A stretch of 39,852 nt of DNA from Nitriliruptoraceae bacterium (GTDB taxonomy: Bacteria; Actinomycetota; Nitriliruptoria; Nitriliruptorales; Nitriliruptoraceae): contig SLHP01000132.1 in the NCBI GenBank assembly GCA_007136095.1, positions 1-39,852 on the forward strand, written 5' to 3'. The notes beneath the pieces were generated by a model. The model searched no databases. It was not told where the DNA came from and saw only the letters and a program-made list of their open reading frames with translations. Shown here piece after piece: positions 15,571-21,699 of the stretch (position 1 is the first letter of the stretch; each line of letters starts with the position of its first letter). The position numbers and the translations under genes were made by a program.

Positions 15571-15645
15571 TGGTGGGCACGGCTGGTATCGAACCAGCGA
15601 CCTCTGCCGTGTGAAGGCAGCGCTCTCCCACTGAGCTACGTGCCC
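15571..15645 (-). tRNA. tRNA-Val (anticodon CAC)
   Basis: A 75-nt cloverleaf on the minus strand. The acceptor stem pairs GGGCACG with CGTGCCC (7 bp), the discriminator base is A, and CCA is encoded in the gene (15571-15573). The anticodon arm is CTGCC-TTCACAC-GGCAG, giving anticodon CAC at 15611-15613 (decodes GTG). The T arm contains GGTTCGATACC and the D arm has the usual AGCTCAGTGGGAGAGC sequence. It lies 10 nt beyond the ftsH stop and convergent with it. Confidence 0.97.
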
Positions 15646-15826: not shown

Positions 15827-16972
15827 GTGGCGTCCGAGCCCCGATCACCCCAGTCTGCCAGTGCCGTTCCACCTCCGGTGCGGGGCGTCATCGTCCTGCT
15901 CCTGTTGTACGTGTTCCTCGTCGGGGTCGCGTTGCTGGAGGTGGGCATCGCGGGGCTCGGCGAAGATTTCACGACCGGGCTGCTGGACCGGGTCGCCAAC
16001 CCGGTCGCCGGCCTGTTCGCCGGGCTGTTGTTCACGGTCCTGGTGCAGTCGTCGTCGGTCTCGACCTCGGCGATCGTGGGCCTCGTCGGTGCGGGGACCA
16101 TCCCGCTCGGGTTGGCCGTCCCCATGATCATGGGTGCCAACATCGGAACCACGGTGACCAACACCCTGGCGGCGCTGGGCAACATCCGTCGGCCGAACGA
16201 GTTCCGCGCCGGCTTCGCTGCCGCGACGTTGCACGACTACTTCAAGCTGATGTCCGTCGCGATCCTGCTGCCGCTGGAGCTCGCAACCAACTTCCTGACC
16301 AACACCTCCGTGTGGCTGACGGCACGGTTGCGCGGGACCGAGGTCAGCGAGGTGGGTTCGAGTCCGATCCGTACGGCGGTGAAGCTGCCCGTCGACGCCA
16401 TCGAGAACCTGGTCGCCCGACTGCCGCTGCCCACCATCCTTCTGGCCATCCTGCTCCTCGCACTTGGCCTCGGGGCCATCTTCTCGGCGCTCGGCCTGCT
16501 CACCAAGAACATGCGCCTGATGGTGGCTGGCGGCATCGAGCAGGCGATGAACCGCGTCATCGGCAAGGGTGGCGGAGCGGTGGGCATCCTCGTCGGGATC
16601 CTGGTCACCGTGGCCGTGCAGTCCTCGAGCATCACCACCGCGATGCTGGTGCCGATGGCGGCGGCCGGAGTGCTGACCCTGCGCAACGTCTATCCGATCA
16701 CGCTGGGCGCCAACGTCGGAACGACGATCACGGCGCTGCTGGCGTCCCTGGCGGTCCAACGGCCTGAGGGCCTGACGATCGCCCTGGTCCATACCTTGTT
16801 CAACCTGGTCGCGATCGCCATCATCTACCCCATCCCACTGATCCGCGACCTACCGCTGCGTGCCGCTCTCTGGACCGCGAACGTGGCCACCGAGCACCGC
16901 AGCCTGGTGCTCGGCTACGTGATCGGCCTGTTCATCGTGATCCCCGTGGTCGGGGTGTTCGTTCTCGGTTGA
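15827..16972 (+). CDS. Na+/phosphate cotransporter family protein, copy 1
   Basis: This 381-residue inner-membrane transporter of the NptA/PNaS (SLC34-like) family imports phosphate with sodium. The two inverted repeats each carry the family QSSS motif: VLVQSSSVSTSAIVG (residues 74-77 are QSSS) and VAVQSSSITTAMLVP (265-268). Each is followed by GANIGTTVTNTLAALG or GANVGTTITALLASLA. Eight to ten hydrophobic helices are visible. Many bacterial members carry a C-terminal PhoU-like domain. Here the protein ends after the transporter, and the PhoU domain is a separate gene 17 nt downstream. Start GTG 15827 has GGAG 8 nt upstream. The Pho-box-like repeats upstream suggest induction in low phosphate. 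It is roughly two-thirds identical by eye to the copy at 19833. Confidence 0.9.
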   Translation: MASEPRSPQSASAVPPPVRGVIVLLLLYVFLVGVALLEVGIAGLGEDFTTGLLDRVANPVAGLFAGLLFTVLVQSSSVSTSAIVGLVGAGTIPLGLAVPMIMGANIGTTVTNTLAALGNIRRPNEFRAGFAAATLHDYFKLMSVAILLPLELATNFLTNTSVWLTARLRGTEVSEVGSSPIRTAVKLPVDAIENLVARLPLPTILLAILLLALGLGAIFSALGLLTKNMRLMVAGGIEQAMNRVIGKGGGAVGILVGILVTVAVQSSSITTAMLVPMAAAGVLTLRNVYPITLGANVGTTITALLASLAVQRPEGLTIALVHTLFNLVAIAIIYPIPLIRDLPLRAALWTANVATEHRSLVLGYVIGLFIVIPVVGVFVLG

Positions 16973-16989
16973 CCGATAGGAGAAACGCC

Positions 16990-17655
16990 ATGGCGTTCGG
17001 GTTCAAACGCAGCACCTCCGGTGACGACCGGCTCGAGAGCATCGAGGCGATCATCCAGCGCATGTTCAACGATGACCGGGTCGTGTTCGACCTGGCGATG
17101 TCGATCCTGCTCGATGGCGTCGACTGGAAGAGCGTCCGGCGCGAGATCAAGGTCACCGACCAGCGGGTGAACGAGGGCGAACGGGAGGTCCGCCGCGACC
17201 TGGTGGTCCACGCCAGTGTGGTCGGCGCGATCGACACCCCCGCGATCCTCGTCTACATGTCCATCGTCAAGGACATCGAGCGCATCGGTGACTACGCCAA
17301 GAACCTCCGCGACCTGGGCCGTGACGGTGTGGATCTCTCCGACTTCCCCGCCTGGCACGAACTCCGCTCGGAGATCGACGGGTTGATCACCGAGACCGCC
17401 GAGACGTTCGCGGACCGCGACGAGGCCCGTGCCCGGCAACTGCTCGTGCGCGGTGATGAACTCCTCGACGAGTTCGACAAGACCGTGTCAAGCATCGTCC
17501 GCGGAGACGATGACCGGCCCAACGGCGTCGGACGCGCCCTGGCCGCCCGCTACCTCAAGCGCATCGTCGCCCACCTCACCAACGTGCTGTCCGCCATCGT
17601 GATGCCGCTCGAACGTCTGGACTACTTCGACGAGGACCCCGAGGACCGGGAATAG
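16990..17655 (+). CDS. PhoU-domain protein, copy 1
   Basis: A 221-residue all-helical protein with a PhoU-like repeat. The metal-binding pattern ExxxDxxxN is seen once in KDIERIGDYAKNL (Glu97, Asp101, Asn105). The C-terminal helix RYLKRIVAHLTNVLSAIVMP is the usual PhoU end. PhoU domains attached to Na/Pi cotransporters are thought to control transport or sense metal/phosphate state. ATG 16990 is preceded by AGGAGA with 7 nt spacing. A longer reading from 16969 would overlap the transporter gene and has no ribosome site. SulP starts 2 nt after its stop, so at least three genes form one operon. Confidence 0.88.
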   Translation: MAFGFKRSTSGDDRLESIEAIIQRMFNDDRVVFDLAMSILLDGVDWKSVRREIKVTDQRVNEGEREVRRDLVVHASVVGAIDTPAILVYMSIVKDIERIGDYAKNLRDLGRDGVDLSDFPAWHELRSEIDGLITETAETFADRDEARARQLLVRGDELLDEFDKTVSSIVRGDDDRPNGVGRALAARYLKRIVAHLTNVLSAIVMPLERLDYFDEDPEDRE

Positions 17656-19417: not shown

Positions 19418-19457
19418 GTGTGGCACAGTGCGCGCACCAGAGAGAGGAGGTGGTCCA

Positions 19458-19505
19458 TTGAGTAGCAACCATAGAATCGGGACCCTGGAGGTGCTCGGCC
19501 GCTAG
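19458..19505 (+). CDS. 15-residue peptide ORF with extended Shine-Dalgarno sequence
   Basis: TTG 19458 opens a 15-codon frame (MSSNHRIGTLEVLGR) ending at TAG 19503-19505. The upstream 16 nt, AGAGAGGAGGTGGTCC, match the full complement of a typical 16S 3' tail (AGAAAGGAGGTGATCC) at 14 positions, far more than normal genes in this window. GGAGG to TTG spacing is 7 nt. The peptide has no run of one amino acid and no Cys, so it does not look like a classical amino-acid attenuation leader or the Cys leader of sulfur genes. The stop codon lies in the loop of a 5-bp hairpin. Translation may matter more than the peptide itself. Confidence 0.45.
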   Translation: MSSNHRIGTLEVLGR

Positions 19506-19692
19506 GAGGCCGGACGCTGGAACGCTCCAGCGAATACCAGCCGAGTACCGCCCCTCGCATCGGTCGGGAAGTTGTCCCGCTCGACGCCCCGGGAGCCCCG
19601 CACGTCACTCGACCACAGCGTCGGGTCCGCGCGGCACCTGCCCCGGGAGCGGTGCCGGAGGTTCCATTCCAGCACAGCAACATCTGCACACC

Positions 19693-19725
19693 ACGAAGGG
19701 CGCGGCACGATGCCGCGCCCTTCGT
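19693..19725 (+). terminator. Strong terminator-like hairpin
   Basis: A perfect 15-bp stem (ACGAAGGGCGCGGCA pairing with TGCCGCGCCCTTCGT) encloses a 3-nt loop, CGA. It is the strongest inverted repeat I see in the window. It has no U-tract on either strand and is symmetrical, so it could work both ways. It lies 323 nt after SulP and 107 nt before the second Na/Pi cotransporter start, so it would separate the small-ORF RNA from that gene. Confidence 0.65.
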
Positions 19726-19832
19726 CGTGCGCGCTCGTCAGGCGCCCGCGGTGTCTTGCGGGTTGCCGTGGCGACCTGCGAGGCTGCCGGCGCTCGTTCG
19801 CCGTTCCTCCTCGGATCCGCAAGGGATCTCCT

Positions 19833-20987
19833 CTGAGCACATCGTCACGGACCGGCCGCGCTGGTCATCGCGACCTCCCGACCGCCGCGCGGGCAGCGCT
19901 GGTGGTCCTGCTGCTGTACGTCTTCCTGGTGGGTGTCGCACTGCTCGAAGCGGGGATCTCCGCCCTCGGTGCCGGGTTCCAGCAGGGACTGCTGGAACAG
20001 GTCGCGAACCCGATCTCCGGGTTGAGCGCAGGGATCCTCGTCACCGTGCTCGTCCAGTCCTCGTCGGTCTCCACGGCGGCCATCGTCGGTCTCGTCGGCG
20101 CCGGCACACTGACGCTGCCCGCAGCCATCCCGATGATCATGGGTGCGAACATCGGCACGACGGTCACCAACACCCTGGCGGCGCTCGGCAACATCCGACG
20201 GACCGAGGAGTTCCGGCGGGGCTTCGCCGGGGCGACGATGCACGACCTGTTCAACGTGTTGGCCGTCGCGATCCTCCTGCCGCTCGAGCTCGCGTTCGGC
20301 TGGCTCTCCCGCAGCGCCGTCTGGCTCACCGAGATCCTGCGCGAGACCGAGATCGACGCGGCCGCACCACCAGCGAGTCCGATCCGTCGCGCGGTCAGGT
20401 TCCCGGTCGAACAACTGGAACACATCATCGACCCGACGATCCTCGGGAGCCTCGTCGCCGGCGTGCTGTTACTGGCCATCGGACTCGGCCTGATCTTCCT
20501 GGCGCTCGGGTTCATCACCAGGAACATGCGGCTGCTGGTCGCGGGCGCCGTCGAGCGGACGATGAACCGGATCGTCGGCCGCGGCGGCGGATCGGTGGGG
20601 ATCCTGGTCGGCATCGCCGTGACGGTCGCGGTGCAGTCCTCGACCATCACCACCTCGATCCTGGTCCCTCTGGTCGCCGCCGGGATCCTCACGCTGCGGA
20701 ACGCCTACCCGATCACGCTCGGCGCCAACGTCGGGACCACGATCACCGCGTTGCTGGCCTCGTTGGCGGTGCTGCGCCCGGAGGGTCTGTCGATCGCGTT
20801 GGTCCACACGCTGTTCAACCTCACCGCCCTTGCGTTGCTCTACCCCATCCCCCAGGTCAGGGTCCTGCCGATCCGTGCCGCGGAATGGCTCGCTGACCAG
20901 GCCGTCAAGCGGCGATCGGTGATGGTCACCTACGTGTTGGGCCTGTTCCTCGTGGTGCCGCTGCTCGGCATCGTCCTGCTCGACTGA
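19833..20987 (+). CDS. Na+/phosphate cotransporter family protein, copy 2
   Basis: This is a paralogue of the transporter at 15827 with the same role. Motifs are VLVQSSSVSTAAIVG in repeat 1 and VAVQSSTITTSILVP in repeat 2, where the third Ser of QSSS has become Thr, plus the two GAN(I/V)GTT loops. Length is 384 residues from the proposed start. No ATG, GTG or TTG occurs close to the first helix; the nearest ATG (19710) would add 41 residues of shadow-like Arg-rich sequence. CTG 19833 has AAGGGA 6 nt upstream and gives an N-terminus within two residues of the paralogue's length. I therefore propose a CTG start. PhoU-like copy 2 follows after 16 nt. Confidence 0.87.
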   Translation: MSTSSRTGRAGHRDLPTAARAALVVLLLYVFLVGVALLEAGISALGAGFQQGLLEQVANPISGLSAGILVTVLVQSSSVSTAAIVGLVGAGTLTLPAAIPMIMGANIGTTVTNTLAALGNIRRTEEFRRGFAGATMHDLFNVLAVAILLPLELAFGWLSRSAVWLTEILRETEIDAAAPPASPIRRAVRFPVEQLEHIIDPTILGSLVAGVLLLAIGLGLIFLALGFITRNMRLLVAGAVERTMNRIVGRGGGSVGILVGIAVTVAVQSSTITTSILVPLVAAGILTLRNAYPITLGANVGTTITALLASLAVLRPEGLSIALVHTLFNLTALALLYPIPQVRVLPIRAAEWLADQAVKRRSVMVTYVLGLFLVVPLLGIVLLD

Positions 20988-21003
20988 TGACTAGGATCGA
21001 CCG

Positions 21004-21699
21004 ATGGTCTTCGGCCTCACCCGCAGGGACGACAGTGGACGCCTCGATCGCATCGAGGCGTCCTTCCAGCGCATGTTCATCGACGACCGGCACGCCTTCG
21101 ACATGGCGATGTCCGCACTGATCGGTGGCGCCAGTCCAGGGACGGTCGGTGACGACATCCGGGCCACCGACCGCCGGGTCAACGAGGCAGAGCGCGAGAT
21201 CCGCCGCGAACTCGTGGTCCATGCCGGTGTCCACGGTGGCTTCGACGCACCCCCCGTGCTGATCTACATGTCGATCGTGAAGGACGTCGAACGGATCGGC
21301 GACTACGCCAAGAACCTCTACGACATCGCCGCCGATGGCGTGGTCCTCGATCGCGGCGAGCTGATGACCGAGATGCTCGAGCTACGCGGGAACATCTCCA
21401 CCCTCATCAGCGACGTCGCGGAGGTCTTCGGGCAACGCGACACCGACCGTGCACGGGAGCTGTTCCAGTACGGGGACGGGCTACAGGACGATTTCGACCG
21501 ACGGGTCTCCGACCTGGTCACCGGACGGATCGGTGAGCCGTACGCGGTCGCCTACGCGCTGACCTACCGCTACCTCAAGCGCATCGTCGCGCACCTGATG
21601 AACGTGCTGTCCGCCGTCGTCATGCCCGTCGATCGGCTCGACTACTTCGACGAGGATCCTGAGGACCGCCTGGATCGTCGCGCCGACGGCGACACCTGA
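21004..21699 (+). CDS. PhoU-domain protein, copy 2
   Basis: A 231-residue paralogue of the protein at 16990, again directly downstream of a Na/Pi cotransporter. The metal motif is KDVERIGDYAKNL (Glu96, Asp100, Asn104). The C-terminal block RYLKRIVAHLMNVLSAVVMP and the acidic end RLDYFDEDPEDR are almost identical to copy 1, so the whole transporter-PhoU cassette was duplicated. ATG 21004 has AGGA about 8 nt upstream, and the transporter stop is 16 nt before it. The C-terminal RRADGDT tail is extra relative to copy 1 and is encoded by one member of a 12-bp direct repeat. Confidence 0.88.
   Translation: MVFGLTRRDDSGRLDRIEASFQRMFIDDRHAFDMAMSALIGGASPGTVGDDIRATDRRVNEAEREIRRELVVHAGVHGGFDAPPVLIYMSIVKDVERIGDYAKNLYDIAADGVVLDRGELMTEMLELRGNISTLISDVAEVFGQRDTDRARELFQYGDGLQDDFDRRVSDLVTGRIGEPYAVAYALTYRYLKRIVAHLMNVLSAVVMPVDRLDYFDEDPEDRLDRRADGDT

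Follow-up and report, generated by a model that had tools for sequence, protein, structure and literature searches.

A remote homologue of the small RNA Ms_IGR-5 combines a near-perfect Shine-Dalgarno block with a short conserved reading frame

Main finding

The window (the whole stretch of 39,852 nucleotides analysed here) carries a short RNA locus between sulP and nptA2. A Shine-Dalgarno (SD) block, a TTG-started ORF, several hairpins and a terminator form a single conserved unit at this locus. Covariance-model matches identify this RNA as a remote homologue of Ms_IGR-5 (RF02471), lying outside that family by the Rfam threshold. For the reading that we favour, we judge the chances to be about even: a stand-alone sRNA gene of the Ms_IGR-5 type, whose switch between a ribosome-engaged and a folded form would act in trans, with ribosome engagement as its function.

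Extent and parts of the RNA

The features of the locus, in window coordinates, are as follows.

19421..19429, + strand: putative extended -10-like promoter element TGG-CACAGT; homologues are TGNTANNNT-like there
19436..19725, + strand: whole RNA, about 290 nt, from the inferred 5' end ACCAGAG to the end of the terminator stem; ends conserved in family and class
19441..19456, + strand: SD block, 14/16 to the 16S tail complement, 16/16 pairing with G-U
19458..19505, + strand: 15-codon ORF, TTG start and TAG stop; start position, frame and stop kept in 23 close homologues
19479..19484, + strand: pseudoknot 5' strand GGGACC, two ORF codons; its partner is the loop of a downstream hairpin
19488..19493, + strand: invariant GAGGTG within the ORF, ending 9 nt ahead of the stop; perhaps a second SD-like site
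19490..19499, + strand: helix P2 5' strand GGTGCTCGGC, partner 19540-19549; covariation
19515..19532, + strand: hairpin CGCTGGAACGCTCCAGCG within the P2 junction, from the fold; sequence variable, hairpin retained in most family members
19540..19549, + strand: helix P2 3' strand GCCGAGTACC, partner 19490-19499; covariation
19563..19585, + strand: hairpin with the pseudoknot 3' strand, GTCCC (19574-19578), in its loop
19649..19674, + strand: 3' block around GCGGTGCCGGAGGTTCCATTCCAGCA, conserved across most of the family
19693..19725, + strand: terminator-like hairpin, 15-bp stem and 3-nt loop; most homologues have a GC-rich stem in this position

The SD block AGAGAGGAGGTGGTCC is identical to AGAAAGGAGGTGATCC at 14 of 16 positions, as the sequence-only reading had stated. 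Both mismatches are A-to-G, so G-U pairing is still possible there. No other stretch of the window matches with three or fewer mismatches (expected number 0.13; 13 of 100 shuffles contain one). The anti-SD tail GGCTGGATCACCTCCTTTCT was taken from the 16S genes of two genomes of the window's family; a search of the draft assembly of the window's own genome did not find its 16S tail. The SD core AGGAGGTGGTCC is almost invariant in the family (no variation in alignments A1 and A3), as is CGGGACCCTGGAGGT. The spacing from GGAGG to TTG in the window RNA is 7.

The TGG-CACAGT element at 19421-19429 is a candidate promoter element; the aligned homologues have TGTGGCATAAT, CGCTACTCT and TGCTTCAAT there, 6-7 nt upstream of the conserved 5' end. 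At the other end the terminator-like stem, ACGAAGGGCGCGGCA/CGA/TGCCGCGCCCTTCGT, is the perfect 15-bp stem with a 3-nt loop that had been noticed before. The region 19430-19740 folds with -158.6 kcal/mol (z -5.9, 100 shuffles), and the fold without the complete terminator stem (19436-19722) has a z of -2.8. TCCAGC in the 3' block may pair over a long range with GCTGGA at 19516-19521, a complementarity spotted by eye.

Conservation and distribution

When 60 relatives were searched at the DNA level, about 25 genomes of the family matched this stretch (E-values from 1e-57 to 1e-10), each at one main place. A covariance model built from the window's family only (R1) matched 48 of the 66 genomes of the class at E<=0.1, likewise at one main place per genome, and its matches include families without DNA-level similarity. 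Given this conservation at both levels, the RNA feature is not a product of chance. The ORF, the SD block and the stems, whose retention in relatives the sequence-only reading had proposed as its check, are conserved in these genomes.

Scanning 84,980 species genomes for the pattern gave at least 120 stretches; of the 80 matches listed, most belong to Acidimicrobiia, Thermoleophilia and the class of the window itself. Viral contigs gave no exact pattern match. A second, sequence model (R2) matched 128 of 397 well-completed genomes of the phylum, including complete genomes carrying RF02471. Three weak R2 matches (L304, L312, L313) were chance-like, inside coding sequence, and were omitted, leaving 125 in use; L123 and L172 were also discarded as chance matches. 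The union of R2 and RF02471 matches covers 152 of the 397 genomes, in 40 families.

Four genomes of one genus of the window's family (g11: G013, G024, G028, G032), of 1.1-1.7 Mb, showed no copy of the RNA in the DNA and R1 searches. This absence would offer a natural test of whether the RNA is dispensable.

The open reading frame

The ORF of the window begins with TTG at 19458-19460, runs for 15 codons and ends with TAG at 19503-19505, its product being MSSNHRIGTLEVLGR. In-frame start codons across 157 distinct homologues are TTG (57), ATG (41), CTG (30) and GTG (11), followed by ACG (6), ATC (6), ATT (2), ATA (1) and none (3). These assignments follow a rule that takes the best codon type 4-13 nt from GGAGG, under which the rarest types are uncertain. 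So assigned, the start codons are mostly non-AUG. The stop lies exactly five codons past the GAG codon in 154 of the 157 homologues, and is TAG in 110, TGA in 35 and TAA in 12.

The variable part of the ORF in 154 homologues contains no stop in frame 0, whereas 16 and 65 of the 154 have a stop in the other two frames. In the family alignments the N-terminal codons vary, insertions preserve the frame and the position of the stop is fixed. The purifying selection on amino acids that would characterize a small protein was not seen at the variable codons of the 154 homologues: among their single-base codon differences the synonymous share equals the expectation, with no excess. In one divergent group, all ten members run through the shared GGAGGTG in a different frame, and the peptide becomes ..SGGGSS or the like. 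GAGGTR is present in 154 of 154 homologues, a count to be read knowing that the extraction pattern itself demanded GAGGTR. The end of GAGGTG is 9 nt from the stop, or 8 or 11 nt in the divergent group. Most of the phylum shares a peptide core, xT(L/V/R)EVxxR. There is no run of regulatory codons or of one amino acid in MSSNHRIGTLEVLGR, and the N-terminal codons vary across homologues.

The ORF is kept open and its stop fixed, yet there is no synonymous excess and one group has switched frame; it is thus the ORF that is retained and not the peptide. We infer that selection acts on the passage of a ribosome through the ORF rather than on its product. The earlier suggestion that ribosome binding matters more than the peptide is in line with these observations.

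Pseudoknot and helix P2

Two helices connect the ORF to the sequence downstream of it. In the pseudoknot, GNG-ACC in the ORF pairs with GGTCNC in the loop of a hairpin further downstream, with compensatory pairs GGG/GGTCCC, GTG/GGTCAC, GCG/GGTCGC, GAG/GGTCT and CGG-ATG/CATCCG. A homologue's own loop partner was found in 130 of 154 cases, whereas swapped partners gave 45.6 on average (maximum 62, 200 trials). In P2, GGTGNNN is paired to its complementary sequence; this helix shows all four Watson-Crick types at one pair and gave 103 own-partner matches versus a mean of 53 (maximum 69) for swapped partners. The counts for both helices take in related sequences, uncorrected for relatedness, so that independent events are fewer than the counts; the changes between families represent several separate events. 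Co-variation, which the sequence-only reading had named as a check on its hairpins, is present across homologues in the pseudoknot and P2. Because both helices are built from ORF nucleotides, a translating ribosome must open them. A previously considered helix between GGUCC of the SD block and GGGACC showed no covariation in the family and was replaced by the covarying downstream pseudoknot.

Relation to Ms_IGR-5

The RF02471 model has no match in the window, either at its gathering score (45 bits) or up to E=10, and none of 41 relatives reaches its cut-off. Among the 19 relatives with any match, the best RF02471 match, below threshold, falls at the R1 locus in 16. In the opposite direction, R1 detects mycobacterial RF02471 loci (L274, E=2.8e-7; L277, 2.7e-6). 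R2 and RF02471 agree on the place in 25 of the 25 shared genomes compared, and intermediates such as G249 and G288 score above the RF02471 cut-off at R2 loci. The same-place sub-threshold matches, the reciprocal matches and the intermediates all point to common ancestry; on the shared places and reciprocal model matches the window RNA is a remote homologue of Ms_IGR-5. The sequence-only reading could name no family; the model matches supply a name, with the window RNA as a distant variant that stays below the Rfam threshold. The only Rfam match in the window is a tRNA at 15574-15645, and the RNA region has no credible riboswitch or cis-regulatory match. We read families f29 and f23 as Mycobacteriaceae and Streptomyces from their gene neighbours and the Rfam match.

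The family name and proven transcripts of Ms_IGR-5 are already known. Ms_IGR-5 was found in Mycobacterium smegmatis by an sRNA screen and Northern blots (PMC3828370) and was located at ncMSMEG15794c (PMC10454040). The Streptomyces avermitilis homologue is an sRNA transcription unit defined by a mapped start site and transcript ends (PMC8780764); that of S. lividans, SLIV_16488, was seen by RNA-seq (PMC8079986). In M. abscessus and M. smegmatis the MS_IGR-5 homologues carry significant ribosome-footprint reads, though the authors caution that a structured RNA can yield Ribo-seq footprints of non-ribosomal origin (PMC4974804). In the open-licence literature, to which our coverage extended, we found no account of the ORF, of its non-AUG starts, of the pseudoknot or of the spread through the phylum, so that these could be known elsewhere.

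An ordinary regulatory sRNA, acting by base pairing or protein binding and contacting ribosomes only incidentally, for instance as protection from decay, would agree with the cataloguing of Ms_IGR-5 as an sRNA, with the strong structure and conserved 3' region, and with the frequency of Ribo-seq footprints on sRNAs. We consider it rather unlikely, as it leaves unexplained both the open ORF with its fixed stop and the invariance of the SD block.

Gene neighbourhood

In the window's family the RNA lies just upstream of nptA-phoU, on the same strand and within a few hundred nt, in 16 of 18 informative relatives. Two family members have it between divergent and convergent genes, where no co-directional gene follows. 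In Thermoleophilia it comes after gyrA, and the next gene is convergent in most listed loci. Families f3-f5 have a GCV_T-domain (ygfZ-like) gene divergent from the RNA at 23 of 23 loci, with zwf, gnd, DsrE-like or other genes downstream of the RNA. Several mycobacteria have it between an aminotransferase gene, adjoining the ygfZ-like one, and a convergent THAP4/nitrobindin-like gene. For each of the gyrA, zwf, gnd, DsrE, GCV_T and THAP4-like neighbours, the identity was confirmed in one or two cases. This is the neighbourhood of a free-standing gene.

A leader-peptide attenuator of nptA2-phoU2, working through the terminator at 19693-19725, would fit the position of the RNA in the family and the correct order of ORF, alternative pairings and terminator. 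A leader of nptA2 had indeed been the second option of the sequence-only reading. We regard attenuation as improbable: the neighbours in other families and classes are variable or convergent (most Thermoleophilia loci, several mycobacteria, unrelated genes in f3-f5), so that no fixed same-strand gene follows the RNA, two members of the family itself lack one, and the ORF has no run of codons for a single amino acid. Since the RNA stands alone in most classes, it is not primarily an nptA2 leader, and on synteny across families and classes we reject this as its main role. The independent RNA that had been preferred over a leader, some 290 nt long by the limits given here, is supported by this stand-alone position and by the published sRNA transcripts of the homologue. 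Its place before nptA-phoU in the family would still allow the RNA a local role in cis.

Some further features of these neighbourhoods may be recorded. Two nptA-phoU pairs flank sulP in the window (15827-17655 and 19833-21699), an arrangement also found in the close relative L032; most of the other family members inspected have just one pair, with the RNA ahead of it. For nptA2 there is no in-frame ATG, GTG or TTG from 19713 to the conserved first helix, except for one GTG that lies in the helix itself; translation could begin at ATG 19710, which falls within the terminator hairpin, or at CTG 19833, after AAGGGA. At four loci of f3 and f5 (L103, L104, L118, L122) the RNA is upstream of gnd/zwf, genes of the pentose phosphate pathway. 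In the divergent group f18 (L287, L288) a tRNA gene follows closely on the same strand.

Proposed mode of action

The stand-alone, ribosome-engaged RNA that we favour is supported by the homology, the stand-alone gene, the open ORF with its fixed stop, the absence of selection on amino acids at the variable codons, and the covariation of the pseudoknot and P2. It might work as follows. The transcript would begin a few bases upstream of the SD block. A 30S subunit would dock at this block and initiate, probably slowly, on the ORF of 10-15 codons; a near-maximal SD joined to a mostly weak start codon would be expected to dock the 30S firmly and let it start slowly. When the ORF is unread, its middle codons would be locked by the pseudoknot with the downstream loop and by P2, both of which a traversing ribosome would open. 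GAGGUG near the end of the ORF could pair with a terminating ribosome and may hold it at the stop codon. Ribosome supply or initiation efficiency would then set the proportion of ribosome-engaged and folded forms, through one of which the RNA would act in trans. We infer the slow start, the holding of the ribosome at the stop codon, the switch between forms and whatever effect follows from it. The footprints on Ms_IGR-5 homologues (PMC4974804) agree with ribosome engagement, and other causes are possible according to their authors.

We advance more tentatively, as a possibility that we think doubtful on the whole, the wider claim that Actinomycetota retain a dedicated ribosome-engaging RNA of which translation itself is the function, the extreme SD and weak start metering initiation, GAGGUG holding the ribosome at the stop and ribosome supply setting the fold, with a part for neither the peptide nor classical antisense pairing. 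That the 10-15-residue peptide is the product, as a small signalling or regulatory peptide, is very improbable despite the conserved ORF and stop and the peptide core, because the conserved residues coincide with nucleotides held by the pseudoknot, P2 or GAGGTG, the variable codons show no synonymous excess, and the divergent group reads another frame.

An sRNA known so far by name alone, in mycobacteria and Streptomyces, extends over much of Actinomycetota, a phylum with major pathogens and antibiotic producers, and has a conserved ORF, non-AUG starts and a pseudoknot within that ORF. The question moves from which mRNA the sRNA pairs with to what the passage of a ribosome does, for which direct tests are possible in laboratory strains of M. 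smegmatis or Streptomyces.

Comparison with known systems

The window RNA resembles Ms_IGR-5, whose Rfam title says only sRNA, in its SD block, ORF position and stop geometry, in having P2 and the pseudoknot in register, in reciprocal covariance-model matches and in being usually single copy. The ygfZ-like gene near Ms_IGR-5 in mycobacteria is likewise near the RNA in f3-f5. It differs from Ms_IGR-5 in scoring below the cut-off, in its TTG start, its peptide and its 3' domain, and in preceding nptA-phoU. With leader-peptide attenuators it shares a short ORF, alternative pairings disturbed by the ribosome and an intrinsic terminator; unlike them, it has no fixed downstream gene and no regulatory codon run, and it is probably a stand-alone transcript. 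Dual-function sRNAs, such as the SgrS-like and RNAIII-like ones, also encode a small protein. The window RNA is like them a structured RNA with a short ORF, which in those sRNAs is translated; in contrast to them, it retains the ORF and not its amino acids, so that the peptide is unlikely to be a second function.
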